Source of the DNA: an uncultured Bacteroidota bacterium
Lineage (GTDB): Bacteria > Bacteroidota > Bacteroidia > Chitinophagales > Saprospiraceae
Length of the DNA stretch: 52,382 nucleotides
Direction: 5' to 3'
Assembly (NCBI GenBank): GCA_903905445.1
Contig: CAIVGO010000206.1
Location: 1-52,382 of the forward strand
The notes below the pieces were generated by a model. It was given only the letters and a program-made list of their open reading frames with translations, ran no database searches and had not been told where the DNA came from. A program made the position numbers and the translations under genes. This document shows positions 10,925 through 44,212 of the stretch, piece after piece (the first letter of the stretch is position 1; the number at the start of each line of letters is the position of its first letter).

Positions 10925-11003
10925 TGCTGTATTTGTTCGATATTGCGTTAGTAAATTTTTGATTGCCGGATTTACCGGATTTACGCCTGCTTATTTCGTT
11001 ATG

Positions 11004-11035: not shown

Positions 11036-11062
11036 GACAAAATCTTTGGCGTTGTTTTCAGA

Positions 11063-11242: not shown

Positions 11243-11304
11243 TGTTATGGAGTGCTTTATGGTTTTTCAAATCTTGCGGAATGAAACACCAGGCTAAAGT
11301 TGAA

Positions 11305-11832: not shown

Positions 11833-11918
11833 TACATTTAGCTAATTTGAATGAAATTATGAATGCTTGGCTAGGTTTACAATGAATGTCATTTGCCTTC
11901 GCCATCACTTTAGATTTG

Positions 11919-12266: not shown

Positions 12267-12318
12267 TGTTACGCTATTTTAATGATTCCGATTTCCGACC
12301 GGAATCCGAATGATTGTA

Positions 12319-12373
12319 TTAAAAAGGTGTTCAACAAGCAATTCCGAAAAAATAGAAAACGTGTTGAACACCT
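12319..12373 (-). terminator. Terminator-like hairpin inside the spc region, between rplF and rplR
   Basis: Perfect 12-bp arms AGGTGTTCAACA (12325-12336) and TGTTGAACACCT (12362-12373). On the minus strand the second arm runs directly into TTTTT AATAC, the layout of a Rho-independent terminator or attenuator with a 25-base loop. A second, smaller inverted repeat follows (GATTCCG at 12284-12290 with CGGAATC at 12300-12306). Both lie within the 120-base spacer. Confidence 0.7.
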
Positions 12374-12386
12374 GATATATGGTGGA

Positions 12387-12947
12387 TTATTTTTTACCAC
12401 CAGCAGTTTTACCTGCTTTACGACGAATAACTTCGCCTTTGAATTTGATACCTTTTCCTTTGTAAGGCTCTGGCTTACGGAAGGCTCGAATTTTGGCGCA
12501 TACCTGGCCAAGTAATTCTTTATCAATGCCTTCCAACTTAATCATCGGTGGAGAACCTTTTTCCATCGCAGTAGTTACTTTCAACTCGCTGGGGATAGAG
12601 AAGATTACTGGGTGCGAATAACCAAGGGTAAATGTTACCATATTACCTTGATTTTCAACACGATAACCTACACCAATGATTTCCATTTCGCGTGTATAGC
12701 CCTCGCTTACGCCAACAACCATGTTGTTAAGCAGTGCGCGGTACAGACCGTGCATCGCTCTATGGCGTTTTTGGTCGGTAGGACGGTTTACCTGTACTAC
12801 GCCATTATCAATGGCGATAGAGATATCGGCGTCCACTTTTTGAGAAAGTGAGCCTTTTGGTCCTTTTACAGTAACCGTATTATCAGGGGCTACCGAAATT
12901 TCAACCTTGGCCGGAAGTGTAATCGGCAATTTACCAATACGTGACAT
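12387..12947 (-). CDS. rplF: 50S ribosomal protein L6
   Basis: A 186-residue protein near the factor-binding site, with two similar halves. It starts MSRIGKLPITLPAKVEISVA; HRAMHGLYRALLNNMVVGVS marks the end of the first half, and EGIDKELLGQVCAKIRAFRK with EPYKGKGIKFKGE marks the second. The C-terminus is basic (IRRKAGKTAGGKK). It lies 33 bases after rpsH; a terminator-like hairpin follows its stop codon. Confidence 0.97.
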   Translation of the reverse strand: MSRIGKLPITLPAKVEISVAPDNTVTVKGPKGSLSQKVDADISIAIDNGVVQVNRPTDQKRHRAMHGLYRALLNNMVVGVSEGYTREMEIIGVGYRVENQGNMVTFTLGYSHPVIFSIPSELKVTTAMEKGSPPMIKLEGIDKELLGQVCAKIRAFRKPEPYKGKGIKFKGEVIRRKAGKTAGGKK

Positions 12948-12980
12948 ATTCCTTACTCAGTTAAGAGTGATGAGTTTAAA

Positions 12981-13391
12981 TTAGCAAATGTAGCAAAGCA
13001 ATTCTCCGCCTACATTTTTTTCGCGTGCTTGTTTGTCGGTTAATACCCCTTTCGAAGTAGAAACGATCATTGTACCAAGCCCGTTGATAATGCGGGGAAT
13101 ATCGCCAGATCCTGAAAACTTCCGCAGTCCTGGACGACTCACACGCACCAATTCCCGAATAATCGGTTTTTTGGTTGTTGGGTCGTATTTCAAAGCGATT
13201 TTGATCAAACCTTGCTTGTGTTCATCCGATTTTTCCTCGAATGTATATTTCAGAATGTAACCCTGATCATACAAGATTTCAGTGATGGACTTCTTTATGT
13301 TGGAAGCCGGAATCTCGACGATGCGATGTCCCGCCATCTGTGCATTGCGGATGCGGGTCAAATAATCTGCTATCGGGTCAGTGACTTGCAT
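12981..13391 (-). CDS. rpsH: 30S ribosomal protein S8
   Basis: A 136-residue primary binder of the central domain of 16S rRNA. Diagnostic parts are [19 protein letters not shown] at the start, [12 protein letters not shown] in the middle and the C-terminal [20 protein letters not shown] with GGELLCYIC. In E. coli S8 is the repressor of the spc operon; no copy of that target was identified here. It lies between rpsN and rplF. Confidence 0.97.
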
Positions 13392-13463
13392 TTTATTGAA
13401 TATTGATTGTTGTCGGTTGTTCGATGCACATCCTTTTTACGGGACTAGCGCGCAACGAAAGAA

Positions 13464-13733
13464 TTACCATGAAGCCTTTGTAACACCTGGAATTTTTCCA
13501 TCGAGTGCCATTTGGCGGAATTTTACGCGGCAGATTCCGAACTTGCGCATATAACCTTTTGGTCGGCCGGTAAGCAGGCAGCGGTTATGCAGGCGAATTG
13601 GGTTTGCGTTGCGTGGAAGTTTGTCCAGTGCATCATAATCACCGGCTTCCTTTAACTTTTTGCGAAGTTCAGCATACTTTGCTACAACACGCTCCCGTTT
13701 TAGTCCACGGGCAATGACTGATTTCTTTGCCAT
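13464..13733 (-). CDS. rpsN: 30S ribosomal protein S14, long zinc-free form
   Basis: 89 residues, the long C-minus type. The C-terminal half reads [20 protein letters not shown] followed by [20 protein letters not shown]; the paired CxxC motifs of the 61-residue zinc form are missing. It lies between rplE and rpsH, 34 bases after the former. This is the usual state in Bacteroidota. Confidence 0.97.
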
Positions 13734-13766
13734 CTTGCGCTATATTTTATTGAAAATGAGCGTCAA

Positions 13767-14315
13767 TTATTTTTTGAACGGAATACCGATTTCTTTCAGC
13801 AGCGCGAAGGCTTCTGCATCCGTTTGGGCTGTGGTCACCATAGTGATGTCCATACCCATAATTTTGTTTACTTTTTCGATATCAATCTCCGGGAAGATGA
13901 TTTGTTCGGTGATACCCATGGTATAGTTACCACGACCATCAAACGATTTATCATTTACACCGCGGAAGTCACGTACACGTGGTAGTGAAATGGAGATCAA
14001 ACGATCTAAAAATTCCCACATCCGTTCGCCGCGCAGTGTTACTCGTACACCGATTGGCATACCTTCACGGAGTTTGAAGTTAGAAACCGACGTTTTAGCA
14101 CGGGTTGGAACCGCTTTCTGACCTACGATTGTGGTAAGGTCATTTGCTGCTACGTCGATCAATTTCTTGTCGCCAGAAGCATCGCCGATACCTTGGTTGA
14201 TGCAAATTTTCACCAAGCGGGGTACCTGCATAACAGAAGAGTAGCTGAACTGCGACATGAGCGCAGGGACTACATCCTGTTGATATTTTGTTTTAAGACG
14301 TGCTGTGTATTTCAT
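13767..14315 (-). CDS. rplE: 50S ribosomal protein L5
   Basis: A 182-residue protein that binds 5S rRNA and contacts the P-site tRNA. Diagnostic parts are [58 protein letters not shown] and the C-terminal [23 protein letters not shown] 14315 is chosen; a GTG codon immediately before it (14318-14316) abuts the rplX stop codon and is an alternative start. Confidence 0.97.
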
Positions 14316-14318
14316 CAC

Positions 14319-14660
14319 TTATATGATGTTTCCAGTTTTTTTAGAATAGCGAACACTTACGCCGTTCTCAATTTTACGGCCAACTCGCGTTGCTTCACCC
14401 GTTTGCGGATCAACCACCAACAGATTAGAGATATGTAGTGGAGCAGGCATATCCTGAATACCACCTTCTTCCGTCTGAGAGGCTTTCACGTGTTTCTTAA
14501 CAATATTGAGGCCATCTACGATTGCGCGCAATTTGTCTGGGAACACCTGAAGAACTTCACCGGTTTTGCCTTTGTCGTCGCCGGCAATAACCATTACTTT
14601 ATCTCCTTTGCGGATATGAAGCTTTTGCGTGAAGCGTTTGGACTTATTATTCGTTGCCAT
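14319..14660 (-). CDS. rplX: 50S ribosomal protein L24
   Basis: A 113-residue assembly-initiator protein bound near the 5' end of 23S rRNA. The KOW motif is clear (GDKVMVIAGDDKGKTGEVLQ, residues about 20-40), followed by GLNIVKKHVK and a C-terminal DPQTGEATRVGRK. ATG 14660 (MATNNKSKRFTQKLHIRKGD) is preferred over a TTG codon further upstream. Its stop codon touches the rplE start region, so translation of the pair is probably coupled. Confidence 0.96.
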   Translation of the reverse strand: MATNNKSKRFTQKLHIRKGDKVMVIAGDDKGKTGEVLQVFPDKLRAIVDGLNIVKKHVKASQTEEGGIQDMPAPLHISNLLVVDPQTGEATRVGRKIENGVSVRYSKKTGNII

Positions 14661-14748
14661 TGTTAATATTGATAATTTGATCGCGCTTTGCAATGCACTC
14701 AGATTGAGTTATTTGCATGGTTTGACCGAAATTAATAGATGCTCAGGT

Positions 14749-15114
14749 TTAGAGTACTTCAGGCGCAAGAGAAACAATACGCATGTAGTCTTTATCGCGC
14801 AATTCGCGTGCAACCGGTCCGAAGATACGAGATCCACGTGGTTCGTCCGAAGCGTTCAGCAGTACTACTGCGTTGTCGTCGAAGCGAATGTATGAACCGT
14901 CTTTCCGACGAATTTCTTTGCGTGTGCGAACAATTACGGCTTTGCTAACGGTACCTTTTTTAATACCGCCTGGAGAAGCGTCTTTAACGGTTACGACAAT
15001 TTTGTCACCGATGCCAGCGTAACGCTGACGAGTGCTACCCAGTACTCGGATACAGAGTACTTCTTTTGCGCCGGAATTGTCGGCCACATTCAAACGAGAC
15101 TCTTGCTGAATCAT
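14749..15114 (-). CDS. rplN: 50S ribosomal protein L14
   Basis: A 121-residue protein at the subunit interface. It starts [20 protein letters not shown] and contains [19 protein letters not shown] and [20 protein letters not shown], all family hallmarks, ending in [10 protein letters not shown]. It lies between rpsQ and rplX. Confidence 0.97.
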
Positions 15115-15202
15115 GACTCTTTTTTATTTTTCAGTGAACGGTTGACAGACGCACGGACTTTCCATGTCGACCCAAGGCCGTCTTACCGATAGTTTTTATT
15201 GA

Positions 15203-15466
15203 TTACTTCGCTCGTTCTAGGATTTCCACCAAACGCCAGCGTTTCATTTTGCTGAGTGGGCGTGTTTCCATAATACGAACCAAATCACCTGGATTACAGG
15301 TATTTTCTTCATCATGTGCGAAGAACTTGTTCGAACGCTTTACGAATTTACCGTAAATTGGGTGCATCAAACGGCGCTCAACCTGTACCGAGATGGTTTT
15401 GTCCATTTTATTGGATACCACCACACCGGTTTTTGTTTTGCGAAGATTTCTTACTAAAGTTTCCAT
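15203..15466 (-). CDS. rpsQ: 30S ribosomal protein S17
   Basis: An 87-residue OB-fold protein binding 16S rRNA helices 7 and 11. Diagnostic parts are [39 protein letters not shown] and [20 protein letters not shown]. It lies between rpmC and rplN. Confidence 0.97.
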
Positions 15467-15560
15467 CTACTCTATTAGATGTGATAATGTGTCGAATTGA
15501 ATTGATTGACAATTGATTTCAAAAGTTTCTTGCCGAGATGACATTAGACTGGATCATCAA

Positions 15561-15821
15561 TTATTTTTGGCGGCTACGGCGTGCGCGCAATTTGGACCGC
15601 AATTCCAACTGTGCAGGAGTAAAGCCAGAAACTTCGCGTGCGCGCATTTCTGTGTTAATCCGTGCAATATTGCGGCGCAATTCGCGGATTTCCATCGGAT
15701 TGCCGAGGCCTCTCACCGCATGGTCGAATTTCATTTGCTGAAGTTCCAGTTCCAGGCTGTTGATGTTGGACACCAGATCCGCATCTGTCATTTCAGCAAC
15801 GTTTAATTTTTCCTTTGCCAT
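15561..15821 (-). CDS. rpmC: 50S ribosomal protein L29
   Basis: An 86-residue alpha-helical protein near the exit tunnel. The family core is LVSNINSLELELQQMKFDHA and GNPMEIRELRRNIARINTEM. A C-terminal stretch of about 20 residues (FTPAQLELRSKLRARRSRQK) makes it longer than the usual 63-70. It lies between rplP and rpsQ. Confidence 0.95.
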   Translation of the reverse strand: MAKEKLNVAEMTDADLVSNINSLELELQQMKFDHAVRGLGNPMEIRELRRNIARINTEMRAREVSGFTPAQLELRSKLRARRSRQK

Positions 15822-15847
15822 TTTACCTTATTGTGATAATTTGTCAA

Positions 15848-15892
15848 TTTAATGGTTGAATTTCAATCGTTTGTTTAAAACCAACCATTAAA
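15848..15892 (-). repeat. Inverted repeat in the rplP-rpmC spacer
   Basis: Perfect 11-bp arms TTTAATGGTTG (15848-15858) and CAACCATTAAA (15882-15892) separated by 23 bases. AT-rich, without a clear T-run on the minus strand; a possible RNA hairpin. Confidence 0.5.
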
Positions 15893-15908
15893 ATTCCTGA
15901 ATTTCTGT

Positions 15909-16328
15909 TTATCCTTCGTAATCGTACCGTGTAACGGCTTTACAAAGAATTGGAAGTTTTTGTGCTGCGAGTCGGAGGGATTCGTAAGCGAGTTCTTCGC
16001 TAACACCTTCGATTTCGAACAAAATTCGTCCTGGTTGTACTTCGGCTACATAGTGGTCGACTGCACCTTTACCTTTACCCATCCGTACCTCAGCCGGTTT
16101 GGAAGTAAGGGGTTTGTCGGGGAAAATGCGAATCCACACTTTACCTTCCCTCTTCATGTTACGCGTCAGCGCAATACGTGCCGACTCAATTTGTCGGCTT
16201 GTGATGCGGCTGAATTCCATTGCTTTCAAAGCAAAAGAGCCGAAGGAGATGGAACTACCTTTGTAAGCAAGGCCGCGATTACGTCCCTTATGCTGTTTGC
16301 GATATTTCGTACGTCTTGGCTGAAGCAT
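15909..16328 (-). CDS. rplP: 50S ribosomal protein L16
   Basis: A 139-residue protein that organises the A-site and factor region. It starts [20 protein letters not shown] and contains the family segments [20 protein letters not shown] and [11 protein letters not shown]. It follows rpsC after an unusually long 134-base spacer that contains an exact consensus promoter, so it probably starts a secondary transcription unit. Confidence 0.97.
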
Positions 16329-16400
16329 TGTGTGCTAGATTTAAAAGCCTGTCGATCAATTGTTTAAGATATTACAACGACCTTTCTTAGAAAGGGGCTG

Positions 16401-16431
16401 CAAAGGTACTACATTTCACCGATTTAACAAA
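16401..16431 (-). promoter_or_regulatory. Exact Bacteroidota-type promoter between rpsC and rplP
   Basis: On the minus strand TTTG (16431-16428), 19 bases of spacer and TACCTTTG (16408-16401) match the TTTG-N19-TAnnTTTG consensus of the primary sigma factor in every fixed position. The predicted start point would be near 16394, about 65 bases before rplP. A short palindrome CCTTTC-TTA-GAAAGG (16381-16395) lies at the start point. Confidence 0.75.
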
Positions 16432-16463
16432 GGCTTAATTTTGTACCTGGTATTGTTTTGCTA

Positions 16464-17429
16464 TTAGCGCCGTCCGCCGCCACCGCCGCCACGGTTTCCA
16501 CCGCCGCCGCTGTTGCCGCCACCACCGCGATTACCGCCGCCGCCAGTGTTGCCACCGCCGCCTCTGCGATCACCGCCGCCACCGCCGCCTCTGCGATCAC
16601 CACCACCGCCGCCTTCGCGACGATCGTTTCCACCGCGACCGCCTTCACGACGATCATTTCCACCGCGATCATTTCCACCTCTGCGATCATTTCCACCACC
16701 GCGTTCGTTTGTTCCGGTGCTACCGGTACCTTCTGCTGCTGTGAATGGGGTCAGTTCGCGTTTGGTCAGTACTTCTCCTTTAAAGAGCCATACTTTGATC
16801 CCGATTTTTCCGTAAACCGTTTGTGCTTCTACTAAAGCGTAGTCAATATCGGCACGGAATGTATGTAAAGGCGTACGGCCTTCTTTGTATTCTTCTGAAC
16901 GTGCAATTTCTGCACCACCTACACGACCGCTGATACGGATCTTGATTCCTTCACCACCTGCGCGCATTGTGCTTTGAATGGCACCTTTGATTGCACGGCG
17001 GTAATTGATACGTGCTTCGATTTGTTTAGCGATTTGTTCGCCAACAATATTGGCATCCAACTCAGGCTTACGGATCTCGAAGATGTTGATTTGAACTTCC
17101 TTACCAGTAAGGACTTTCAATTCTTCTTTGATCAGGTCAACTTCTTTACCACCTTTACCGATAATAATACCAGGACGGCTGGTGTGGATGGTAACCGTTA
17201 CACGCTTGAGCGTTCTTTCGATTGCAATACGCGCAATACCATTTTGAACCGGTTTATTTCGGTCGCGTGGATCTGCCACAGCTGTTTTAGGGCGGCGTGC
17301 ACGCAGGTAATTGCGAATTTTTTCGTCCTCCACAACCTTAAGACCATAGTCTTTGTCGGCATACCAGTTAGAGTCCCAACCGCGGATTATGCCTAAACGG
17401 TTACCAATCGGATTTGCTTTTTGACCCAT
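16464..17429 (-). CDS. rpsC: 30S ribosomal protein S3 with long Gly/Arg-rich tail
   Basis: 321 residues; the core (about 1-235) is a standard S3, which lines the mRNA entry channel: [20 protein letters not shown] at the start, a KH domain with the [14 protein letters not shown] loop at about residues 84-97 and the C-terminal domain ending [15 protein letters not shown]. After that come about 80 residues of Gly, Arg, Asn and Asp in repeats of the type [14 protein letters not shown] and GGGGNRG. Typical S3 has 210-240 residues. Such RGG-type tracts bind RNA and are disordered in other proteins. The coding DNA is a low-complexity CCGCC-type stretch (plus-strand 16465-16700). Confidence 0.96.
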
Positions 17430-32963: not shown

Positions 32964-33911
32964 ATGAATCACATGAAACGCGTATTAATTACGGATGATT
33001 GCCATCCAGTGTTGATGGAAGGTTTGGAGTCTTTGGGGTATCAATGTGATTTTGTACCGGATATTACGCCTGAGGCTACACTCGATCAAATTCCGGATTA
33101 TACGGGTTTGATTATCAATAGTAAGATTCAGGTTAACCGCGATTTTTTAGATCGCGCTGTTTTGTTGAAGTTTGTAGGTCGCTTGGGTTCCGGGATGGAG
33201 ATTGTGGATCGGCCCTATGCTGCAGAACGGGGCGTTTCGGTTTTCAGTAGCCCAGAGGGAAATCGGAATGCGGTAGCGGAACAGGCATTGGGGATGTTAT
33301 TGAGTTTGTCTAACCATTTATCCCGTGCTGATCAGGAAGTGCGGCAGAAAATATGGCGACGGGAGGCAAATCGAGGATGGGAATTGCGGGGTAAAACCCT
33401 AGGAATCATTGGTTTTGGGCACACTGGCAGTCAGTTTGCAAAAAAACTAGCAGGGATGGAAATGAAAGTATTGAGTTACGACAGATATTTGAACGATTAT
33501 TCGGAGGGGATGCCTTGGGTAAAAGAAGTAGAAAGTTTGGAGGAGATCGTAAGTCAGTCGGATATTATCAGTTTACATTTGCCGTTGACGCCGGAGACCA
33601 AGCACTTGGTAGATGCCGCATTTATACAGCGGTGCAAACCGGGTTTTATTTTGATCAATACAGCCCGTGGGGCATGCGTGGATACTGCAGCGGTTGTGGA
33701 AGGATTGGCAAGTGGACAGATTGGTGGGGCATGTTTGGATGTTTTCGAAAATGAGAAGCCAGTTACCTACACGGTTTCAGAATTGGCGGTGTATGAGCAA
33801 TTATTCGGCTTTGAAAATGTAGTTTTGACGCCGCATATCGCTGGATGGACGCTAGAGTCGAAACGATTGCTTGCAGAAACGCTTTTACAGAAAATAAAAG
33901 GGGTGTTTTAG
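32964..33911 (+). CDS. D-isomer 2-hydroxyacid dehydrogenase (3-phosphoglycerate dehydrogenase-like)
   Basis: 315 residues. The NAD-binding motif GFGHTG (in LGIIGFGHTGSQFAKKL, about residues 144-160), the catalytic arginine in NTARGACVDT (about 231-240), the glutamate in LDVFENEKP and the histidine in LTPHIAGWTLES are all present. Substrate cannot be told: SerA-like, glyoxylate/hydroxypyruvate and other enzymes share this pattern, and no ACT domain follows. Start uncertain by three codons (a second ATG lies at residue 4). It is followed by the TonB-receptor gene 61 bases later. Confidence 0.88.
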   Translation: MNHMKRVLITDDCHPVLMEGLESLGYQCDFVPDITPEATLDQIPDYTGLIINSKIQVNRDFLDRAVLLKFVGRLGSGMEIVDRPYAAERGVSVFSSPEGNRNAVAEQALGMLLSLSNHLSRADQEVRQKIWRREANRGWELRGKTLGIIGFGHTGSQFAKKLAGMEMKVLSYDRYLNDYSEGMPWVKEVESLEEIVSQSDIISLHLPLTPETKHLVDAAFIQRCKPGFILINTARGACVDTAAVVEGLASGQIGGACLDVFENEKPVTYTVSELAVYEQLFGFENVVLTPHIAGWTLESKRLLAETLLQKIKGVF

Positions 33912-33972: not shown

Positions 33973-36900
33973 ATGGTACGTTCTTTACTATTAACATTCG
34001 CAATGCTCCTGAGCGCCGGAGCCCTACTTGCCCAGTCGACTGTATTGTCGGGCAAGGTATCGGACGATAAGGGCGAAGCGCTGATTGGAGCAACCGTCAA
34101 GGTGCTGAAAGGCACTGATTTTGTGAAGGGGACTATTACCGACTTCAATGGCGATTATCGTATTCAGATTGATCCGGGAAAATATGACCTGGAAATTTCT
34201 TATACAGGTTTTTCAACATCTCGCCAGTCAGGAGTACAGGTAATCGCTGGCAAGCTCAACCCTTTGGACATTACAATGTCTTCCAATACGGTGTTGACGG
34301 AAGTCATAATTACCCAATATCGTGCTCCACTGATTGAGCAAGATAAAACGCAAGGAGGTCAGACATTGACTTCTGAGCAAATTAAAAACCTTCCAACACG
34401 GAGCGTGAATGCGATTGTGGCCACTACTGCGGGTACCACATCCATTGATGGAGGTGAAGTAAACATCAAAGGTTCGCGTTCGAATGGCACGAACTATTAC
34501 ATTGATGGTATTCGTGTACAAGGTTCACCACCACCTGTTCAGGACATTGAGCAATTGTCTGTTATCACAGGCGGCTTGGGTGCCGAGTATGGTGACGTGA
34601 CCGGTGGTGTAATTTCGGTGATCACCAAGGGGCCTGCCAGTGAGTACCATGGTTCTGTTGAAGTTGAAAACTCCAATGGATTGGATCCTTATGGATGGTT
34701 TTTGGCAACAGCCAACGTGAGTGGCCCGATTTTGAAGAAAAAAGAAGCTAATGGAGAAACCCGTACGGTGGTTGGTTTCCGTATGTCTGGTCAGTATCGA
34801 TACCAGAAAGATGATGATCCGCCAGCAACCAACGTGTTTAGGGCAAAAGAAAGCGTTTTAGCGAATCTCGACCGCAATCCTTTGCGTCGGAATGGCGCTT
34901 CTATTTCTAACTCAGCAGAATTTATCAACAACGATTCTGTAGATGTTTTTAACTATCGGACTGATCAGAACCGTTCGGACCTTGATTTGACAGGTAAGTT
35001 GGACTTCAAATTGACGGATAAGATTGATTTTAGCATCACAGGTACCTTTGCTGATGTACAAAATCGTTTTAATCCGACCGACGATTATCCAACTTGGGCG
35101 ATTTTGAATTCAAAATACAACCCGACCGATTACAGTCAGCGTTACCGGGGGATTGCCCGTTTCCGCCACCGTTTGGGTAGTGCAGAAGAAGTTGAAAGCA
35201 AAGCCAGCAACAAGATTGCAATTTCTAATGCAAGTTATCAATTGCAATTTGGTTTTGAACGTGGTTTGAGTAAAAACAGCGATTCACGCCACCAAGAACG
35301 GTATTTTGATTACGGCTACATTGGTCGATTCAATTTTGACTATGTTCCGGTAGCAGGCTTAAATGACAATGGTGATTTTGCCCACATTGATAACCGCGAG
35401 CAGTTTACCGGCTTTGAAGCAGGCTATATTAATGCAAATGGTAAACTGGTAGTTCCGAATGGTAGCCGTAATGGCAATGGAGAAACCGGTGCGCAAGGTG
35501 GCTTGGTCGCATACAATCAGTTTGCTGACCAGAATTTTTATTCTTCCTATGTTGCGCGGAACGGATTGTTGAGTTCTACCTATGATGATGTTTGGGGTGG
35601 TATGTATGCCAATATTAATACCATTTACAACCGCTCTAGAAAATCTGAAAACGACATTGTGACCATTATGGCCAACAGTAGTTTTGATTTGAAATTGGGT
35701 AAAACGGGTACACACAATATTCAGTTTGGTTTGATGAATGAGCAGCGCACTTTGCGCAGTTATACCTTGGCGCCTTTTGGTTTGTGGAACCTGGCGGAGC
35801 AATCGGCCAACAGCCATTTCAATGGTTTGGATACGACGAAAGTAATTGGGAAGATTTTTGTAGAGTTTACAGGCGATTCGATTGACCAATATGCGAACGC
35901 GTACGTAGATTTTCCAGACAATAAGTTTTACAAGAAAGTACGCGAAAAACTGGGTGTTCCTTTAGATCAATGGGTGAACACCAATGCCCTGACACCAGAC
36001 CAGTTGAGTTTGGACATGTTTGCGCCGCGTGAATTAACAGAACAAGGTTATGTAAGTTTTTATGGTTACGACTACCTGGGCAACAAAACGGCCAATGGTG
36101 TAACCTTTAATGACTTTTTCACCAGCACCGATGTAGATGGTGTGCGGAATTATCCGGTTGCACCCTTGCAGCCTTTGTATCAGGCAGCGTTTATCAAGGA
36201 CAAATTTACCTTTAACAAGATGATTGTGAGTCTTGGTGTGCGGGTAGAGCGGTTTGACTTGAATACCAAAGTATTGCGTGATCAGTATTCTTTGTACCAG
36301 ATCATGTCTGCCAAAGATTATTTCGCAACGGTTCCAGGTGTTCCGAACCGTCCGGGTACCATTGGAGATGATTTCAAGGTGTATGTTACAAGTCCACAAG
36401 AATTAGGTAAGCCGAAAGCTTTCCGGGATGGTAACATCTGGTATTTTGCAGATGGCCGTCAGGCGAATGATGGCAACGTGATCTTTGGGGGTGGAGTTGT
36501 GACACCATTATTGTTGGACTCAATTTCTGGTGATGATATTATAGACAAACGTTATAACCCAAACACATCGTTTGAGGATTATACGCCACAAGTAAACTGG
36601 TTGCCACGTTTGGCGTTCTCCTTCCCGATTTCGAAGGATGCAAACTTTTTTGCGCACTATGACGTATTGGTACAGCGCCCACCAAGCAACTGGGAGGTGA
36701 CACCCTTGGATTACTTGTATTTTTATACACCTGGTCGCACGCCAACGAACAATGCAAATTTGCGTCCAGAGCGTGTAGTTGACTATGAGGTTGGTTTCCA
36801 GCAGCGTTTGAATCAAAACTCTGCCCTTAAATTCTCTGCATACTACCGCGAGTTGCGCGATATGATTCAGCGTCGTACCATTTTGTATGTTCCAGTAATT

Positions 36901-37632
36901 GGTCGTTACGATACGTATGGCAACATTGACTACGGTACGGTTAAGGGTTTCACCTTACAATATGACTTGCGTCGTATTCAGAACACAGAGTTGCGTTTGG
37001 CGTACACGTTGCAATTTGCAGATGGTACTGGTTCGGATGCCAACTCACAGCGTGGTTTGACTTCGCGTGGCAATATTCGTTCTTTGTTCCCTTTGAATTT
37101 TGACGAGCGTCACAACATCCAAGCCATCATCGATTACCGTTTTGACAATGGTAAAGCATACAATGGCCCTCGGATTTTCGGCAAAGACATTTTGGCTGAT
37201 TTTGGCGCAAACATGCAACTTGCGGCAGTTTCTGGTCGTCCATACACTTCAAAAATCCGCGCTACCCGTTTTGGTGGAGAGGGTACTTCTGGAGCGATCA
37301 ACGGCAGCCGTTTGCCATGGCGTTTGAACATCGACTTGCGTTTGGACAAAACCTGGAGTTTGACAGCAAAGGACAAAAAACCATTGACGATCAATGTATA
37401 TTTCCGCGTTTCGAACTTGTTGAACAAATTGAACGTGGTAGGTGTCTATGGTGCAACAGGTGATCCGAAAAATGACGGTTATCTTGCAAGTGATCAAGGC
37501 GTATCTGAACTTTCGGGTATTACTGGTGCACAAATTGCCGCTTATCAAAGTTCATATTCTTGGATCTTGAATAACCCAAACAACTTTGCGCAACCACGCA
37601 GAATGTTTATTGGTGCTGCTTTAGGATTCTAA
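33973..37632 (+). CDS. TonB-dependent outer-membrane receptor with carboxypeptidase-regulatory-like domain
   Basis: 1219 residues from ATG 33973; signal peptide about 1-21 (RSLLLTFAMLLSAGALLAQS). A carboxypeptidase-D regulatory-like domain (about 23-102, with GKVSDDKGEALIGATVKVLK) precedes a plug (about 125-220, with YYIDGIRV and the GLGAEYGDVTGGVISVITKG repeat) and a large barrel to the end, finishing RRMFIGAALGF. The layout is SusC-like, but no SusD gene follows; instead a giant secreted protein and a PorV-like protein follow in the same direction. The substrate is unknown. A TTG start further upstream (33928) was rejected. Confidence 0.9.
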   Translation: MVRSLLLTFAMLLSAGALLAQSTVLSGKVSDDKGEALIGATVKVLKGTDFVKGTITDFNGDYRIQIDPGKYDLEISYTGFSTSRQSGVQVIAGKLNPLDITMSSNTVLTEVIITQYRAPLIEQDKTQGGQTLTSEQIKNLPTRSVNAIVATTAGTTSIDGGEVNIKGSRSNGTNYYIDGIRVQGSPPPVQDIEQLSVITGGLGAEYGDVTGGVISVITKGPASEYHGSVEVENSNGLDPYGWFLATANVSGPILKKKEANGETRTVVGFRMSGQYRYQKDDDPPATNVFRAKESVLANLDRNPLRRNGASISNSAEFINNDSVDVFNYRTDQNRSDLDLTGKLDFKLTDKIDFSITGTFADVQNRFNPTDDYPTWAILNSKYNPTDYSQRYRGIARFRHRLGSAEEVESKASNKIAISNASYQLQFGFERGLSKNSDSRHQERYFDYGYIGRFNFDYVPVAGLNDNGDFAHIDNREQFTGFEAGYINANGKLVVPNGSRNGNGETGAQGGLVAYNQFADQNFYSSYVARNGLLSSTYDDVWGGMYANINTIYNRSRKSENDIVTIMANSSFDLKLGKTGTHNIQFGLMNEQRTLRSYTLAPFGLWNLAEQSANSHFNGLDTTKVIGKIFVEFTGDSIDQYANAYVDFPDNKFYKKVREKLGVPLDQWVNTNALTPDQLSLDMFAPRELTEQGYVSFYGYDYLGNKTANGVTFNDFFTSTDVDGVRNYPVAPLQPLYQAAFIKDKFTFNKMIVSLGVRVERFDLNTKVLRDQYSLYQIMSAKDYFATVPGVPNRPGTIGDDFKVYVTSPQELGKPKAFRDGNIWYFADGRQANDGNVIFGGGVVTPLLLDSISGDDIIDKRYNPNTSFEDYTPQVNWLPRLAFSFPISKDANFFAHYDVLVQRPPSNWEVTPLDYLYFYTPGRTPTNNANLRPERVVDYEVGFQQRLNQNSALKFSAYYRELRDMIQRRTILYVPVIGRYDTYGNIDYGTVKGFTLQYDLRRIQNTELRLAYTLQFADGTGSDANSQRGLTSRGNIRSLFPLNFDERHNIQAIIDYRFDNGKAYNGPRIFGKDILADFGANMQLAAVSGRPYTSKIRATRFGGEGTSGAINGSRLPWRLNIDLRLDKTWSLTAKDKKPLTINVYFRVSNLLNKLNVVGVYGATGDPKNDGYLASDQGVSELSGITGAQIAAYQSSYSWILNNPNNFAQPRRMFIGAALGF

Positions 37633-37762
37633 TTTGGTGCATTTTCAGGGCAACCATGTTGAAAAAGTTATGTTTCAATGAGGAATATACCCTATAAAAC
37701 AATATCCTTCAAATCTGCTTGGACTGTTCAATTTCATTTCAAGACATTTAAAAATTAAACTC

Positions 37763-40700
37763 ATGCGTAATTACAAACTTTGGATAGCAACCCTGCTTGC
37801 AATAGTAGTTTGCGGAAGTGCCATGGCGCACGTTCCCGACTATGCGCGCAAGGTCACCCGCCAGAACAAGGTTCAATACCGCGATGTTTGCGCCAACTCC
37901 AAGTCACAAATTGACCAGGAGATCAACAATGTGCGCGCACGTTTGCTTGGTGGTGGCGACTGTTGGTGGGACTTTTCTTTTGGCCGATATATTGTACCGA
38001 AAGTAGACATTACTTCTGGTCAGCGGGAGGTATCTTCCATTTTTGCTGGCTCTGTATGGTTGGGTGGCGTTGACCCAGGTGGCAACCTGAAGTTGGCTTG
38101 TCAGGATTACCGGAATGACGGTAAAAACGATTTTTGGCCTGGTCCATTGACCGAACAGGGTATTACAGACGAATTTACCTGTACCAACTGGGACCGTCAT
38201 TTTCGTGTGACGGGCGAGGAAATTCGTCGGCATTTGAAAAACCTTTCGGATAGTATTTTTGATGTATCCGCTATTCCAATTGGAGTAAAAGGTTGGCCAG
38301 CGCAAGGCAATCAGTATTTTCCGTTTGTTTGGGGTTTTAGCCTTCCTAATACGCAACAGGCATTGGCTGGTTTTTTTGATGCAGATGAAGATGGTTTGTA
38401 CAATCCTTTGAAAGGCGATTATCCGTCCATTGAAATTCGGGGGTGCCCACAAAACCGTTACCCCGATGAAATGATTTTCTGGATATACAATGACCAGGGT
38501 GCTGGTGCTCCGCACGCACGTACCAATGGCAAGCCGATTCAGATGGAGGTACAGGTACAGGCATTTGGCTACCTGACCAACGACGAGTTGAACGATATGA
38601 CGTTCCACCGTTACAAATTGATCAACCGTGCAGTAGAGCGCATCGACTCGATGTTCTTTGCGATGTGGCTTGATGCTGATTTGGGTTGTTCTATTGATGA
38701 CTACATTGGTTGTGACAGTTCAAAAAACCTGATGTACATCTACAACCAGGATGCGACCGATGGTCAGCCAGGTGCTAACTGTGATGGTGGTGTTGCTACC
38801 TATGGTACCACGGTTCCAATTTTGGGTTGCGACTATTTCCGCGGTCCTTTGGATACGTTTGCGAATGAAATCGGCATGTCTTCTTTTATGTATTATAACC
38901 GGACCGGTACAGGAGGCCCCTTTGCGGGTACCTATGACCCGACTCAGCCGGGTGAATACTACAATTATATCACTGGTAGCTGGCGGGATGGAACGCCGCT
39001 AACCCAAGGAGGCAATGGCTATAACAACAATACCGGTATTCCGACCAAATATGCATTGACAGAAACACCCGACGATCCAAATGGATGGTCGATGTGTACC
39101 GCCAACTTGCCAGTCGGTGACCGTCGTACCCTGCAGGCTTCTGGTCCATTTACTTTGAAGCCGGGTGCCGTAAACGAATTGATTATTGGTTTGCCTTGGG
39201 TGCCGGAGCAGGATTACCCATGTCCAAACCTTGATAACTTGTTCCGTGCCGACAACCTTGCACAAGGTTTGTTTGATAACTGCTTTGAGCTATTGGAAGG
39301 CCCGGATGCACCAACCGTAGGCTGGATTGAGTCGAATAAGGAAGTAATTGCGGTGTTGTCAAATGCACCACCGTCAAATAACTTTGTAAAAGAAAACGAG
39401 GATTACAGAACACAAGACTTCCTGGCGCCTGAAAGTTTGAAAAACAGTCCAGACTCTTTGATCCGGGAATCTACGTTCTACAAATTTGAAGGTTATCTGG
39501 TTTACCAATTGTCTGACCCTAATGTATCAACTTCGGAGTTTGATAATCCGGAGAAGAGCCGTTTGGTGTACAATGTAGACGTTAAAAACAACGTAACAAA
39601 ACTGTACAACTGGATTGAAGGTCGCGATCCGTTTACAAAAAAGCGGATTTACTTCCCAGAAGAGCAGATTGCTGGCTCGGATGGTGGTGTTCGCCACACT
39701 TTTAGCATCAAGGAAGATAAATTTGCCTTGGGCAACAGTAAAGCGCTGATTAACCATAAGAAATATTACTATGCTGTAATTGCATATGGTTACAACAACT
39801 TTGAAAACTTCAACCCGCTTGCGCAACCTTCGGCTACCGGACAATCTCGTACATACTTGCCAAGCCGTAAATCGGGCGATGGTAGTGCAATTCAGATTTA
39901 CACGGTGATTCCACGTCCGATTGTAGACCAGGCATTACAATCTTCTTATGGAGATGGTTTGGAAGTGACGCGTTTGGAAGGTGTGGGTGCTGGTGGTAAC
40001 TTCCTGGATTTGACGGATGAGACCTACGACCGCATTTTGAACAGTGATTTCGACAGTACTTTGACGTACAAACCGGGTCGTGCACCAATTACGGTGACCA
40101 TTTTCAATCCACTGGAAGTAAAAGACGGCGATTTTGAATTGAGTTTTGTGGATTCTAACAACGATGACAGTCAATTGGACATGAATGCACGTTGGCAATT
40201 GCGCCGCGTTTCTGATGGCACCATCATTGGATCTGAAAAGTCGATTGAAAAATTGAACGAGCAATTGATCCTGCAATATGGTTTCTCTGTGTCGATTGCC
40301 CAATCTGCCGAGCCAGGTGATTTGGCGGATGAAAAGAACGGTGGTATTGGTATGGAAATCGAGTACAAAGATCCGAACGCTGCTTGGTTGACGGGATATG
40401 GCGATCAATTGACGGCACCTTTCAACTATATACGTACAACAGAACCAGTTCCAGATGCGGATTACGACCAAAACGGTGATGGTATTCCATTGGATCCGAA
40501 CGGTGGTTTGAGCAAATTGGGTAATGAAACAGATGGTGAGTTGGGTTGGTTTGTTCCTTATGTATTGGCCAACTGGCGCTTGCGCGACCAGGCGGATGTT
40601 CCGAACGACCGCTTGCTTACGCCAGCATGGACCGATAAATTTGGCAATATTCCACAAGGACAGTTTAACAGTCAGGCGGTATTTGCTTCAGAATCACAAG

Positions 40701-41905
40701 AAAACGTACGCCGCAGCCGTTTGCGCCTGTTGCCGAATGTTGATATTGTGTTGACCAGCGACAAGAGCAAATGGAGCCGTTCGGTGATCATTGAATCTGC
40801 ATCTGGTTACTGGACAGACACCAATACCTATGGTGCATCACAGGATGTAGCACAGGCTACTGAAAGTCCTGCAAGCAGAAAGCGCCAATCATTTGATGCG
40901 CGTTATGGTTTGTCGGTAGGTAAAGACGATGCCAACGGTGATGGATTGCCTGATCCGGATGGCGAATTAAACCCAACCGATGGTACGCCTGCAGCGGGTA
41001 CGCCATTGCGTGGTATGGGTTGGTTCCCAGGCTATGCAGTAGATGTAGAGACTGGTCAGCGTTTGAATATCTTCTTTGGAGAAAACTCTTGTTATTCAAA
41101 AGATCTGGATCCAGATTATACTGGCCGGGATATGATGTGGAATCCAACCAGCCAATTGGTGAGCGATGATGTGGTAAATATCAACCAGTCAGACTTCCCG
41201 AATTGGGTATTGGGTGGCCAGCATTGGGTGTATGTGACCTATTCAAAATACGATGGTTGTGACTCTTTGCGTCGTGCATTTACGCCAGAGCGCTTTTCTG
41301 GAAGTGCCATTTACAACAACAAAACAGCGCAAATCCGCAATATCGCATGGGCTGGTATGGTCCAATTGGCTGCTGGCGCTCAATTGAAATCGTATAAAGA
41401 TGGTTTGATTCCAACAGATACGAAAATCAAATTGCGTGTACAAAACGCGTACAAAACGTGGTGGCGTCAAGATGGTGACCATACCAAACGCAACGGTCAT
41501 CCAAAGTATTTGATCCGCATCCGCAACCAGCAACCGATTGCACTGGATCAGGTGCAGGTGGAAAATGCACTTGACTCTATCAAGGCAGTTCCAAACCCGT
41601 ACTATGGATTCTCGCAATATGAAACTTCACAGTTTACAAACATTGTGAAAATCACGAACTTGCCTGCAAAATGTGTGGTAACCATTTACTCTTTGGATGG
41701 CAAGTTTATCCGTCAGTACAATCGTGCAGAGCAATATTCTGCCTACAAGCAATATTTGCCTGCGATTGAATGGGATATGAAAAATAGCAAGGGCATTCCG
41801 GTAGCGAGTGGCGTTTACCTGATCCATGTTAACGCAGAAGGCCTGGGTGAACGAACGGTAAAATGGTTTGGTATTGGGCGACAGTTTGACCCATCCGGCC
41901 TATAA
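37763..41905 (+). CDS. Giant secreted protein with calcium-type repeats and C-terminal sorting-like domain
   Basis: 1380 residues with a signal peptide (about 1-22, KLWIATLLAIVVCGSAMA). At least three Asp-rich calcium-type loops occur: DADEDGLYNP (about 206), DADYDQNGDGIPLDPNGG (about 896) and DDANGDGLPDPDGE (about 1055). The last 105 residues (from about 1276, VPNPYYGF) resemble a type A T9SS sorting domain: LPAKCVVTIYSLDGKFIRQY and GVYLIHVNAEGLGERTVKWF, but the end (GIGRQFDPSGL) is longer than usual. It is rich in tryptophan, aromatic and paired cysteine segments. It lies 130 bases after the receptor and before a PorV-like gene. Function unknown; surface exposure is inferred. Confidence 0.75.
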   Translation: MRNYKLWIATLLAIVVCGSAMAHVPDYARKVTRQNKVQYRDVCANSKSQIDQEINNVRARLLGGGDCWWDFSFGRYIVPKVDITSGQREVSSIFAGSVWLGGVDPGGNLKLACQDYRNDGKNDFWPGPLTEQGITDEFTCTNWDRHFRVTGEEIRRHLKNLSDSIFDVSAIPIGVKGWPAQGNQYFPFVWGFSLPNTQQALAGFFDADEDGLYNPLKGDYPSIEIRGCPQNRYPDEMIFWIYNDQGAGAPHARTNGKPIQMEVQVQAFGYLTNDELNDMTFHRYKLINRAVERIDSMFFAMWLDADLGCSIDDYIGCDSSKNLMYIYNQDATDGQPGANCDGGVATYGTTVPILGCDYFRGPLDTFANEIGMSSFMYYNRTGTGGPFAGTYDPTQPGEYYNYITGSWRDGTPLTQGGNGYNNNTGIPTKYALTETPDDPNGWSMCTANLPVGDRRTLQASGPFTLKPGAVNELIIGLPWVPEQDYPCPNLDNLFRADNLAQGLFDNCFELLEGPDAPTVGWIESNKEVIAVLSNAPPSNNFVKENEDYRTQDFLAPESLKNSPDSLIRESTFYKFEGYLVYQLSDPNVSTSEFDNPEKSRLVYNVDVKNNVTKLYNWIEGRDPFTKKRIYFPEEQIAGSDGGVRHTFSIKEDKFALGNSKALINHKKYYYAVIAYGYNNFENFNPLAQPSATGQSRTYLPSRKSGDGSAIQIYTVIPRPIVDQALQSSYGDGLEVTRLEGVGAGGNFLDLTDETYDRILNSDFDSTLTYKPGRAPITVTIFNPLEVKDGDFELSFVDSNNDDSQLDMNARWQLRRVSDGTIIGSEKSIEKLNEQLILQYGFSVSIAQSAEPGDLADEKNGGIGMEIEYKDPNAAWLTGYGDQLTAPFNYIRTTEPVPDADYDQNGDGIPLDPNGGLSKLGNETDGELGWFVPYVLANWRLRDQADVPNDRLLTPAWTDKFGNIPQGQFNSQAVFASESQENVRRSRLRLLPNVDIVLTSDKSKWSRSVIIESASGYWTDTNTYGASQDVAQATESPASRKRQSFDARYGLSVGKDDANGDGLPDPDGELNPTDGTPAAGTPLRGMGWFPGYAVDVETGQRLNIFFGENSCYSKDLDPDYTGRDMMWNPTSQLVSDDVVNINQSDFPNWVLGGQHWVYVTYSKYDGCDSLRRAFTPERFSGSAIYNNKTAQIRNIAWAGMVQLAAGAQLKSYKDGLIPTDTKIKLRVQNAYKTWWRQDGDHTKRNGHPKYLIRIRNQQPIALDQVQVENALDSIKAVPNPYYGFSQYETSQFTNIVKITNLPAKCVVTIYSLDGKFIRQYNRAEQYSAYKQYLPAIEWDMKNSKGIPVASGVYLIHVNAEGLGERTVKWFGIGRQFDPSGL

Positions 41906-41920
41906 GGAGCGGGCTTCAGC

Positions 41921-41987
41921 CAGCGCGGTAAAAAAGTACATCGGTTCCTGATTGTGAACGATTGTGCTTTTTTACCAGCGCTGTTTT
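41921..41987 (+). terminator. Long terminator between the giant secreted protein and the PorV-like gene
   Basis: CAGCGCGGTAAAAAAG (41921-41936) pairs with CTTTTTTACCAGCGCTG (41967-41983) with one bulged A, then TTTT. Inner bases can pair further. It would limit but need not abolish read-through into the PorV-like gene. Confidence 0.8.
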
Positions 41988-42030
41988 AAGCATTAAATGC
42001 AACCAATCAAGCATTCAATTAAACAAAATT

Positions 42031-43080
42031 ATGAAGAAAATATACGCATATTTGCTGTTCAGTGTATTGGTGCTGTTGGCAAATCCAATGTTTGCGGGTA
42101 ATCCTGACCGTCAAGGTGAGGCGGGCGCAAACCAATTGCTGATCAATCCATGGGTACGCAGTGCGGGTTTACACACCATGAATACTGCATCGACCACTGG
42201 ATCGGAAGCGATGTTTTTAAATGTGGCAGGTTTGTCGCGCATCAACAAGACACAAATCCAGTTGAGCCATACCCGTTATTTGTCTGGGGCCGACATCAAC
42301 ATCAACGCCTTGGGTTTTGCGCAACGGGTTGGTAAAGGTGGCACTTTTGGCATCAGCCTGGTTGCTTTTGATTTGGGCGATTTTGATTACACCACCGAAG
42401 ATAATCCGGAAGGAACGGGTGCGGTTTTTAGCCCGTCTTTTTTCAACATGGGTGTTTCTTATGCACACTTGTTTGACAATAAAGTATCGGTAGGGGTAAC
42501 GACAAAGTTTGTAAGTGAAACCATTTCAAATGCACGGGCCAGCGCTTTTGCAATTGATGCCGGTGTACAATATGTAAGTGGCCCACAAGACAATTTCAAG
42601 TTTGGAATTTCTTTGCGCAATGTAGGTTCTAAAATGCGGTTCTCAGGAGAAGGTTTGTCAAAAGCATTGCCAAATCCAGGTCCATTTACCTACAATAACA
42701 CCTATTACGAGCGTTCTACTGCTTACGAACTTCCATCTCAATTGAACATTGGAATGTCGTACGATTGGGTATTGGGTCGTACCAGCCGCTTGGGTTTTGT
42801 GGCTAACTTCACTTCCAACTCTTTCTCGCGTGACCAGGTTGGTGGCGGATTGGAATTCTCTTTGGGCCAGAATTTTGCTTTGCGCGCTGGCTACAAAGCG
42901 GAATTAGACAAGTCGGAAGGTGATTTAGAAGCAACCCTGGACAATGGTTTTGCAGGCGGATTTTCCGTTTCTGTGCCGTTGAAAAAGGATACTAAGTCGC
43001 GCTTGTCCATCGATTATGCTTATCGCACCACCGATATTTATAACGGCATCCACAACATTGGTTTGCGGATTGACCTGTAG
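42031..43080 (+). CDS. PorV/PorQ-family outer-membrane beta-barrel protein
   Basis: 349 residues from ATG 42031 with signal peptide about 1-22 (KKIYAYLLFSVLVLLANPMF). The PorV/PorQ hallmark NVAGLSRINKTQIQLSHTRY is at about residues 68-87, and the remainder alternates strands to a final GIHNIGLRIDL, as in FadL-related barrels. PorV shuttles T9SS substrates at the outer membrane and PorQ is a related protein; this copy, next to a candidate T9SS substrate, could be a dedicated partner. Which subfamily it belongs to cannot be told without a tree. Confidence 0.82.
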   Translation: MKKIYAYLLFSVLVLLANPMFAGNPDRQGEAGANQLLINPWVRSAGLHTMNTASTTGSEAMFLNVAGLSRINKTQIQLSHTRYLSGADININALGFAQRVGKGGTFGISLVAFDLGDFDYTTEDNPEGTGAVFSPSFFNMGVSYAHLFDNKVSVGVTTKFVSETISNARASAFAIDAGVQYVSGPQDNFKFGISLRNVGSKMRFSGEGLSKALPNPGPFTYNNTYYERSTAYELPSQLNIGMSYDWVLGRTSRLGFVANFTSNSFSRDQVGGGLEFSLGQNFALRAGYKAELDKSEGDLEATLDNGFAGGFSVSVPLKKDTKSRLSIDYAYRTTDIYNGIHNIGLRIDL

Positions 43081-43316: not shown

Positions 43317-43793
43317 ATGGCTAATTACACGTATTTGACGCAGGGTGGATACGACAAACTCAAGGCAGAGTTAGAAGAGTTGAAATCCACAGGACGTAAA
43401 GAGGCTGCCATGGCCATCGCGGAAGCACGCGCGCAAGGCGACTTGTCAGAAAATGCCGAGTATGATGCGGCAAAAGATGCGCAGGGTTTGCTTGAAATGA
43501 AAATCAATGAACTGGAAACTGTAATGTCGAATGCACGGGTGATTGATGAAAGCCTGTTGGATGACTCCAAGGTGGCCATTTTGTCGAATGTGACGATCAA
43601 GAACCTGAAAACGGGGAAGGAAATGACCTATAAATTGGTTTCTGAAACAGAAGCGGATGCTAAGTTGATGAAAATATCGGTTACGTCTCCCATTGGCCAA
43701 GGGCTGTTGGGTAAAGTTTTAGGGGATATTGCGAAAGTTCAAACGCCAGCGGGCATCATGGAATTTGAAGTGGTGAATATCACGATCGGATAA
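43317..43793 (+). CDS. greA: Transcription elongation factor GreA
   Basis: A 158-residue protein that enters the polymerase secondary channel and promotes cleavage of backtracked RNA. The coiled-coil tip reads GDLSENAEYDAAKD (about 41-54) with the acidic residues needed for cleavage, and the C-terminal domain includes VTSPIGQGLLGKVLGD. The ATG at 43317 is the natural start. It is followed by the HIT gene after 20 bases, suggesting an operon. Confidence 0.96.
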   Translation: MANYTYLTQGGYDKLKAELEELKSTGRKEAAMAIAEARAQGDLSENAEYDAAKDAQGLLEMKINELETVMSNARVIDESLLDDSKVAILSNVTIKNLKTGKEMTYKLVSETEADAKLMKISVTSPIGQGLLGKVLGDIAKVQTPAGIMEFEVVNITIG

Positions 43794-43813: not shown

Positions 43814-44212
43814 ATGGCCAGCATTTTTACCCGAATTGTCAACGGCGAGATTCCTTGCCATAAAATCGCTGAAACGGCCGATTATTTGGCGTTTTTGGAT
43901 GTACGTCCCGTTGCAATGGGCCATACCCTTTGTATCCCTAAGCAGGAAATCGATTATTTCTTTGATTTGGACGATGCTTTGTTGTCGGGTTTGATGTTGT
44001 TTGCCAAGCGTGTGGCGGTTGCTGTTAAAAAAGAAGTGCCTTGTTTGCGTTGCGGGGTGGCCGTTATTGGCCTGGAAGTTCCGCACGCGCATGTGCATGT
44101 GATTCCGATGAATTCAATGGCTGATATTGATTTTCAGCATAAATTGGATGTTGCGCCCGCTGATCTTGCGGCTTTGGCCAATCGGATCGCGGCCCAGGTA
44201 GATTTGACCTAG
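43814..44212 (+). CDS. HIT-family protein
   Basis: 132 residues. The nucleotide-binding histidine triad reads HAHVHVIPM (about 96-104), preceded by the usual DVRPVAMGHTLCIPKQEIDY and FTRIVNGEIPCHKIAE near the start. HIT proteins hydrolyse nucleotide conjugates such as adenosine phosphoramidate or dinucleoside polyphosphates; the substrate here is not known. It forms an apparent two-gene operon with greA, ended by the 44245-44279 hairpin. Confidence 0.93.
   Translation: MASIFTRIVNGEIPCHKIAETADYLAFLDVRPVAMGHTLCIPKQEIDYFFDLDDALLSGLMLFAKRVAVAVKKEVPCLRCGVAVIGLEVPHAHVHVIPMNSMADIDFQHKLDVAPADLAALANRIAAQVDLT

Follow-up and report, generated by a model that had tools for sequence, protein, structure and literature searches.

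A conserved three-gene block of Bacteroidota with a TonB-dependent receptor, a giant protein ending in a PorU/PorZ-like domain, and a separate PorV-family barrel: a candidate surface machine

The locus and its three genes

Three genes follow one another on the forward strand of a 52,382-nucleotide stretch of DNA from an uncultured Bacteroidota bacterium of the Saprospiraceae (contig CAIVGO010000206.1 of GenBank assembly GCA_903905445.1; "the window" means this whole stretch throughout): a gene for a TonB-dependent receptor, a gene for a giant protein, here called BIG, and a gene for an outer-membrane barrel of the PorV family, here called PORV (Table 1). An earlier interpretation made without database searches, the sequence-only reading, had described a receptor, a giant secreted protein, and a PorV/PorQ-family barrel in line on one strand, and the list of open reading frames (ORFs) agrees. 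The conservation of this block suggests that it encodes an overlooked surface machine of Bacteroidota.

Table 1. Positions of the three genes, and of other features mentioned in the text, within the window
Feature	Position	Strand	Description
Receptor gene	33973..37632	+	ORF, 1219 aa from the ATG at 33973; CarboxypepD_reg extension, Plug domain, and remainder (presumably the barrel)
BIG (giant exported protein)	37763..41905	+	ORF, 1380 aa; N-terminus resembling a signal peptide (by eye), predicted T9SS-type C-terminal domain
C-terminal sorting domain of BIG (predicted), residues 1262-1380	41546..41902	+	PorU/PorZ-like, with a conserved tail at the end
PORV (PorV-family outer-membrane barrel)	42031..43080	+	349 aa, starting with the ATG at 42031; probably the dedicated carrier or anchor of BIG
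D-2-hydroxyacid dehydrogenase gene	32964..33911	+	Recurrent upstream neighbor; context, outside the system
greA	43317..43793	+	Recurrent downstream neighbor; context
HIT-family gene (named by eye)	43814..44212	+	Recurrent downstream neighbor; context
Strong RNA hairpin between BIG and PORV	41913..41991	+	From the folding energy of the gap 41906-42030

Conservation of the gene neighborhood

Linkage of the three genes is well supported. We examined the loci of the best 80 of 571 BIG relatives, several of which come from metagenome bins whose labels may be wrong; many are labelled Saprospiraceae and some Chitinophagales, Flavobacteriales, Cryomorphaceae, or Bacteroidales, and the isolates among them belong to Neolewinella, Lewinella, Membranihabitans, and Saprospira. 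Cultured strains with the block include Neolewinella agarilytica DSM 24740 (L071) and Saprospira grandis DSM 2844 (L098). Where both flanks are covered, the receptor gene lies directly upstream of BIG and PORV directly downstream in 66 of 72 loci. Of the six others, five are lone BIG genes and one (L077) has broken frames, so that the pieces are present but the distance rule fails. Among 44 regions drawn from genomes of the class, 39 carry BIG with PORV, 38 of these with the receptor as well (the other, L170, ends at a contig end just upstream of BIG), and five have BIG alone, in genomes G018, G022, G024, G044, and G047, each of which has the operon in another region. The two sets overlap in at least three loci (L090 and L176, L087 and L195, and L101 and L127 are the same DNA), so that these counts are not independent. 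The sequence-only reading had named mostly scattered, unlinked homologs as the outcome that would speak against it; no such pattern was seen among the relatives surveyed, though lone BIG copies exist.

Lone BIG genes occur at L128, L176 (the same as L090), L194, L196, L198, L079, L088, L103, and L105. All nine distinct copies except L196 retain the conserved tail described below, and L128 lacks the conserved lysine. Tandem BIG-PORV-BIG arrangements are found at L043, L044, L059, L082, and L126, the second BIG of L059 being without the tail.

At one chromosomal site, the three genes are either all present or all missing. In 149 genomes of the class, BIG was matched in 128 (at 1e-10; an upper bound, because paralogs with only the N-terminal domain also match) and the PORV profile in 125 (at 1e-60); both were found in 124 genomes, BIG only in 4, PORV only in 1, and neither in 20. 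In 110 of the 125 genomes, PORV is no more than 3 kb from a listed BIG match. When the 126 PORV matches are set against the BIG matches listed, from which the weak end is left out, 110 are near BIG, 9 sit on contigs for which no BIG is listed, 6 come from genomes where the listing gives no place for BIG, and 1 is in G036, which has no BIG. In the 80-locus set the same neighbors recur around the block, with greA downstream in 56/80, the HIT gene in 49/80, and the D-2-hydroxyacid dehydrogenase gene upstream in 39/80, the denominator including loci shortened by contig ends; the next most recurrent family (23/80) is RuvC-like by eye and mostly on the other strand, and the survey of these 80 loci revealed no recurrent metabolic partner near the block.

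The same site can be recognized in genomes without BIG. We located it in 15 of these, from 19 searched of the 21 BIG-less genomes (G025 and G036 were left out). At all 15 loci greA and the HIT gene are still neighbors (separated by no more than 500 bp at 14 loci and by about 1.4 kb at one), and the dehydrogenase gene adjoins greA in seven, once across a gap of about 1.2 kb. None of the 15 has the receptor, BIG, or PORV, the receptor having been sought at those loci only; the three profiles gave a single match there, to a generic receptor encoded on the opposite strand (69 bits, L230). Of the 125 genomes with PORV, 124 give one match and G024 gives two. One barrel gene per genome, next to greA, would fit a core function better than a niche nutrient system.

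Co-inheritance of the three genes

Tree distances were compared over 39 of 40 operons (G120 has no receptor), with canonical PorV as a proxy for the species; for G047 the best of three similar PorV genes was taken. Partial correlations given this proxy are 0.67 for receptor and BIG, 0.75 for receptor and PORV, and 0.61 for BIG and PORV, and none of 2000 permutations was as high. The plain correlations with canonical PorV are themselves high (0.74-0.80), so common descent explains much of the signal, and the correlation supports a unit rather than contact, because linked genes with a common history would give it too. The gene order, the all-or-none block at one site, and tree distances that correlate beyond the species proxy uphold the earlier view of the three genes as a unit.

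PORV as a fourth kind of PorV-family barrel

The earlier assignment of the barrel to the PorV/PorQ family is confirmed by two models, with scores above cut-off for both Pfam PorV (PF19572, 41.1 bits) and the NCBIfam PorV/PorQ family (NF033709, 152.1 bits, cut-off 90); the PORV query in these searches was 42028-43077. The scores for the equivalog models of PorV, PorQ, and PorV2 are 81.5, 82.9, and 44.4 bits, far from their cut-offs of 250, 220, and 325. In a tree of 110 sequences (part of some sets, with canonical PorVs picked by family score rather than by the PorV model) the operon PORVs, canonical PorVs, PorQs, and PorV2s separate into one group apiece, supported at 1.0, 1.0, 0.99, and 1.0. 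By sequence comparison, then, PORV is placed as a fourth clade of the family, and its identification as PorV, PorQ, or PorV2 was rejected both by the cut-offs and by the separate clade.

The genome of the window encodes one each of PORV, PorV, PorQ, and PorV2, plus a fifth, weak family match of 24.8 bits. It has a T9SS (type IX secretion system) translocon together with a shuttle: SprA is present in two pieces on two contigs, and porU adjoins a PorV-family gene of 412 bits, which we take as PorV from its family score and its place. At least 150 type A sorting-domain matches occur in this 5.9 Mb genome (150 of 379 candidates scored). Its PorV2 gene (L121:9018-10127, 461 bits) adjoins, on the opposite strand, a frame of 2204 residues (10450-17061) whose C-terminus looks T9SS-like by eye.

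The C-terminal domain of BIG

Assignment of the C-terminus of BIG to T9SS domains of the PorU/PorZ type is well supported by sequence profiles and a predicted fold. We compared the last ~119 residues of BIG in 101 of 105 selected domains, leaving out L054 and the second copy of L043, both incomplete, as well as L097 and L100. At E 1 the NCBIfam models matched as follows: PorZ 101/101, the type A cargo model TIGR04183 101/101, PorU 99/101, and FlgD 81/101. For the window BIG domain alone, PorZ (32.2 bits) ranks above PorU (25.1) and TIGR04183 (23.7, cut-off 23); on the whole protein TIGR04183 reaches 17.6 bits. The best Pfam families for the set are FlgD_ig (75/101) and the sorting domain (66/101), both below cut-off in window BIG, where the sorting domain PF18962 scores 14.9 bits against a cut-off of 27 on the domain alone. 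Seven cargo domains from the window's genome served as controls (taken from the surroundings of PorV-family or BIG-like genes, not drawn at random): these score 20.5-43.2 bits with TIGR04183, two of them below cut-off, and are matched by the PorZ model in 0/7 and by the PorU model in 1/7, weakly (E 0.017). The "T9SS-like sorting region" of the sequence-only reading is thus a T9SS domain, as claimed, and an atypical one, in which the PorZ and PorU models rank above the cargo model.

Structure comparisons point in the same direction. In a profile search of the Protein Data Bank (PDB) with the BIG domain, the top hits were PorZ (E 0.011) and PorU (E 0.028), followed by an NHL protein and FlgD; these weak matches gain weight because the fold search agrees. 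In Foldseek comparisons of the BIG model, for which the aligned segment on BIG was inferred and not read off, the sole match below 0.001 was PorZ (5m11, E 1.3e-4), and the C-terminal domains bound to the PorV translocon, 8gl8_D and 8glk_D, ranked third and seventh (E 0.012 and 0.048; template-modelling (TM) scores by target 0.67 and 0.70). Seven strand elements, as in a seven-stranded immunoglobulin-like fold, lie in the last 107 residues of the model.

A regular expression for an additional WD...G.Y hairpin matches 101/101 BIG domains and the PorU of the window's genome, and 0/7 cargo domains; this hairpin is described as common to PorU and PorZ (PMC11285876). Lysine 106 of the BIG domain is conserved in at least 90% of the 101, and aligns, on our reading of the alignment, with a lysine near the C-terminus of type A domains that is reported to be important (PMC10994853). 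The tail that follows fits a loose expression in 97/101 and is modelled with little certainty over its last residues; a tail so conserved and so loosely modelled can be what a partner-binding segment looks like.

The N-terminal and middle parts of BIG

The N-terminus of BIG reads as a signal peptide by eye. No Pfam family matched BIG at E 0.1, and at the same threshold NCBIfam gave nothing outside the C-terminal part. AlphaFold2 models, built from alignments that took in 83/105 sequences, are confident for residues 25-735 (predicted local distance difference test score 92.5) and 520-1380 (88.6). The best PDB matches of the N-terminal model are sugar-active enzymes (E 7.3e-6, TM score 0.26), and the sequence profile of this part found no PDB match at E 1; an enzyme function for BIG was dropped, such matches being too poor. 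Residues 25-735 (window 37835-39967), confidently modelled and poorly matched, possibly represent an undescribed domain arrangement.

The "calcium-type loops" noted earlier are borne out in the form of one acidic loop (examples AGFFDADEDGLYNPLKGDYP and AGFWDENGDGLYNPLDGDFP), which a loose regular expression finds in 109/123 BIG relatives and which may bind calcium, as motifs of this type do. Two paralogs in the window's genome (L123:6017-7771 and L124:2786-5614) combine the N-terminal domain of BIG with short type A tails, which score 41.7 bits and, just below cut-off, 20.5 bits; this also points to T9SS export of such proteins. The domain common to BIG and these paralogs may be a reusable module of T9SS cargo.

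The receptor

The receptor has the plug of a TonB-dependent transporter (PF07715, 38.6 bits, cut-off 23.9), preceded by a CarboxypepD_reg extension (64.5 bits, also above cut-off) resembling that of a SusC homolog in the PDB (9hfj). NCBIfam includes SusC/RagA models, and none was among the receptor's NCBIfam matches at E 0.1. The immediate neighbors of the block are the D-2-hydroxyacid dehydrogenase gene and greA, with no SusD between them and it, the rest of the window being unscanned for SusD. A SusCD identity was rejected on these two grounds; of the "SusC-like" receptor of the sequence-only reading the TonB layout and the extension remain, and membership in the SusC family does not, so the term applies to layout only. 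A scan of its own genome with the subfamily profile gave 56 matches, among which the receptor scores 1676.6 bits and the runner-up 95.7 bits, in the N-terminal part only. On this sequence criterion the receptor belongs to a dedicated subfamily tied to this operon, and is not one of many interchangeable receptors.

Comparison with known systems

In known pairs, as in Porphyromonas, PorU sits on PorV and PorZ on PorQ (PMC5562754), and the C-terminal domains of PorU and PorZ are retained uncleaved and stay bound (PMC10202324, PMC11285876). A review puts forward the hypothesis that cognate PorV-like barrels protect the domain, and calls the way in which PorZ keeps its domain not yet known (PMC10202324); type A substrates are described as all recognized by one shuttle, PorV (PMC12618676). 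BIG and PORV fit as one more pair of this type, by analogy: a surface protein with an unusual C-terminal domain, best matched by PorZ and PorU, would be held by a PorV-family barrel. They differ from the known pairs in that BIG matches the PorU and PorZ models over its last ~115 residues only, that PORV is far below the PorV, PorQ, and PorV2 cut-offs, and that the block is linked to a TonB receptor.

A dedicated carrier gene directly downstream of an exported substrate is also found in SprB-SprF and PG1035-PorP, where the carrier serves as an anchor too (PMC12618676, PMC9143113). Unlike those type B pairs, the BIG domain fits models of the type A fold, with CHU_C matched by 5/101 (best E 0.017), and PORV reaches 15.6 bits against the cut-off of 90.55 for the PorP/SprF family (TIGR03519); a type B/PorP pair was rejected on these figures.

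On the receptor side, SusCD pairs a TonB-dependent barrel with a surface protein encoded alongside it. BtuBG does so too (PMC10404256), and the receptor and BIG genes are side by side in the same way; the partners in SusCD and BtuBG, however, are lipoproteins whereas BIG is of T9SS type, the receptor fits no SusC model, and binding between receptor and BIG is a prediction from gene linkage. We found no published description of this operon in the literature searched (PorV relatives, T9SS with TonB-dependent receptors, and PorV2/PorU2), most subscription journals being outside the search. The parts of the operon belong to known kinds; their combination is undescribed in that literature.

A proposed mechanism

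We propose that i) BIG would enter the periplasm by its signal peptide and cross the outer membrane through the type IX translocon; ii) the co-encoded PORV would collect its PorU/PorZ-type domain in place of the general shuttle PorV; iii) BIG would stay on the surface with its uncleaved domain held in PORV, as PorU is on PorV and PorZ on PorQ; iv) the anchored BIG would give the dedicated TonB-dependent receptor an extracellular capture or lid subunit, the role that surface lipoproteins like SusD and BtuG have with their own receptors; and v) the receptor would then import a ligand common to these bacteria. Taken together, this amounts to a T9SS-delivered BIG, anchored on a dedicated PORV and serving a dedicated receptor in an outer-membrane surface complex, and to the whole we give an even chance. 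Its parts differ in strength. Export of BIG by the T9SS is well supported. That PORV carries BIG and that the domain is retained is probable by analogy with the known pairs, and agrees with the earlier idea of an exported protein with an export or anchor helper, BIG having the T9SS domain and PORV being a separate family member. A physical complex of BIG and PORV with the receptor seems somewhat likelier than its absence, and import by the receptor is an evenly balanced matter. Collection of BIG by PORV is argued from analogy and linkage, and service of BIG to the receptor from linkage by itself.

Several observations weigh against this proposal. Gaps of 130 bp between receptor and BIG and of 125 bp between BIG and PORV, the latter with a strong hairpin, make the three genes only putatively co-transcribed. 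BIG follows the species proxy (r 0.80). BIG copies occur without receptor or PORV (5/72 loci and the second copies in G047, G018, G044, G022, and G024, one of them in both sets), so BIG may act apart from the receptor, or one PORV may serve two BIGs. Conversely, no BIG is listed for the contigs of nine PORV matches, of which two lie no more than 500 bp from the contig start and four (in G094, G011, G062, and G016) more than 20 kb from it (the other contig end and weak BIG matches being unchecked). The window BIG domain alone reaches the type A cut-off (23.7 vs 23), above two of the cargo controls (21.1 and 20.5). The domain of mirolase, a Tannerella cargo, likewise has PorZ and PorU as its nearest structural relatives, and cleavage still occurred when the PorZ hairpin was added to RgpB (PMC11285876); the PorU/PorZ resemblance therefore leaves cleavage undecided. 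One copy at a fixed locus would be unusual for a nutrient-specific receptor, and binding and transport are predictions from genes and models.

Alternative explanations

BIG could be an ordinary type A cargo that travels by the general PorV, is cleaved by PorU, and is released or fixed to lipopolysaccharide, with PORV a transporter or auxiliary factor and the linkage only regulatory. The match of TIGR04183 to every BIG domain at E 1, the window domain just above its cut-off, the nearly invariant lysine near the C-terminus, and the short type A tails (41.7 and 20.5 bits) of the two own-genome paralogs would suit such a cargo. We nonetheless consider it unlikely, since the window domain scores higher with the PorZ and PorU models than with the cargo model, since these two models hardly fit the seven cargo domains, and since a separate PorV-family clade accompanies BIG in 124/128 genomes.

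More serious as a rival, if still on the unlikely side, is a structural or biogenetic platform on the surface, for attachment, envelope organization, or T9SS function, in which the TonB link would supply force or signalling and nothing would be imported. A general function is suggested by the single copy at a constant locus (one PORV in 124/125 genomes, recurrently beside greA), and the neighbor survey showed no recurrent metabolic partner. There is a precedent in the β-barrel assembly machinery of Bacteroidota, where surface proteins join a FadL-type barrel in a complex that does not serve transport (PMC12578637, PMC12611786); BamG-BamH resembles the proposed PORV-BIG in that a FadL-type barrel holds a large surface protein, and differs in having a surface lipoprotein, BamH, within a complex assembled on BamA (PMC12611786). 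No BamA-like recurrent neighbor was noticed in the 80-locus survey, which included no dedicated search for one. Against a platform, the receptor keeps its plug domain, and PorV-family genes in 17/21 BIG-less genomes imply that the block is not generally needed for the T9SS. A receptor acting in the export of BIG or of another protein is much the least probable: a TonB-dependent barrel, Oar, has reportedly been proposed to help export the protein PopC in Myxococcus, the domain layout (extension plus plug) is similar, and the receptor here is strictly linked to an exported protein, but the T9SS-type domain of BIG and the T9SS parts in the genome make a second export route unneeded.

If our proposal of an anchored BIG serving the receptor is true, the latter would be, to our knowledge, the first receptor with an extracellular partner delivered by type IX secretion and not by lipoprotein export, and T9SS and TonB-dependent transport would be joined in one complex. 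An unstudied core surface machine would be added to Bacteroidota, with BIG and PORV in 124/149 genomes of the class and recurrently beside greA, and the co-inherited pair of substrate and carrier would make testable both the one-shuttle view of type A substrates and the retention of the PorZ domain. The wider claim, that the T9SS has a further way of surface placement, in which a fourth PorV-family barrel keeps one giant PorU/PorZ-type substrate permanently as a subunit of a TonB-dependent machine in the core envelope of many Bacteroidia, is tentative, and we put it at slightly under even.

Intergenic signals in the window

Promoter and terminator counts are near shuffle level (15 vs 16.2 and 15 vs 10.8) and uninformative. 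The gap between BIG and PORV (41906-42030) folds at -41.5 kcal/mol (z -5.25), with 0/200 shuffles equally stable, and the hairpin within it may tune PORV expression or shield the mRNA.

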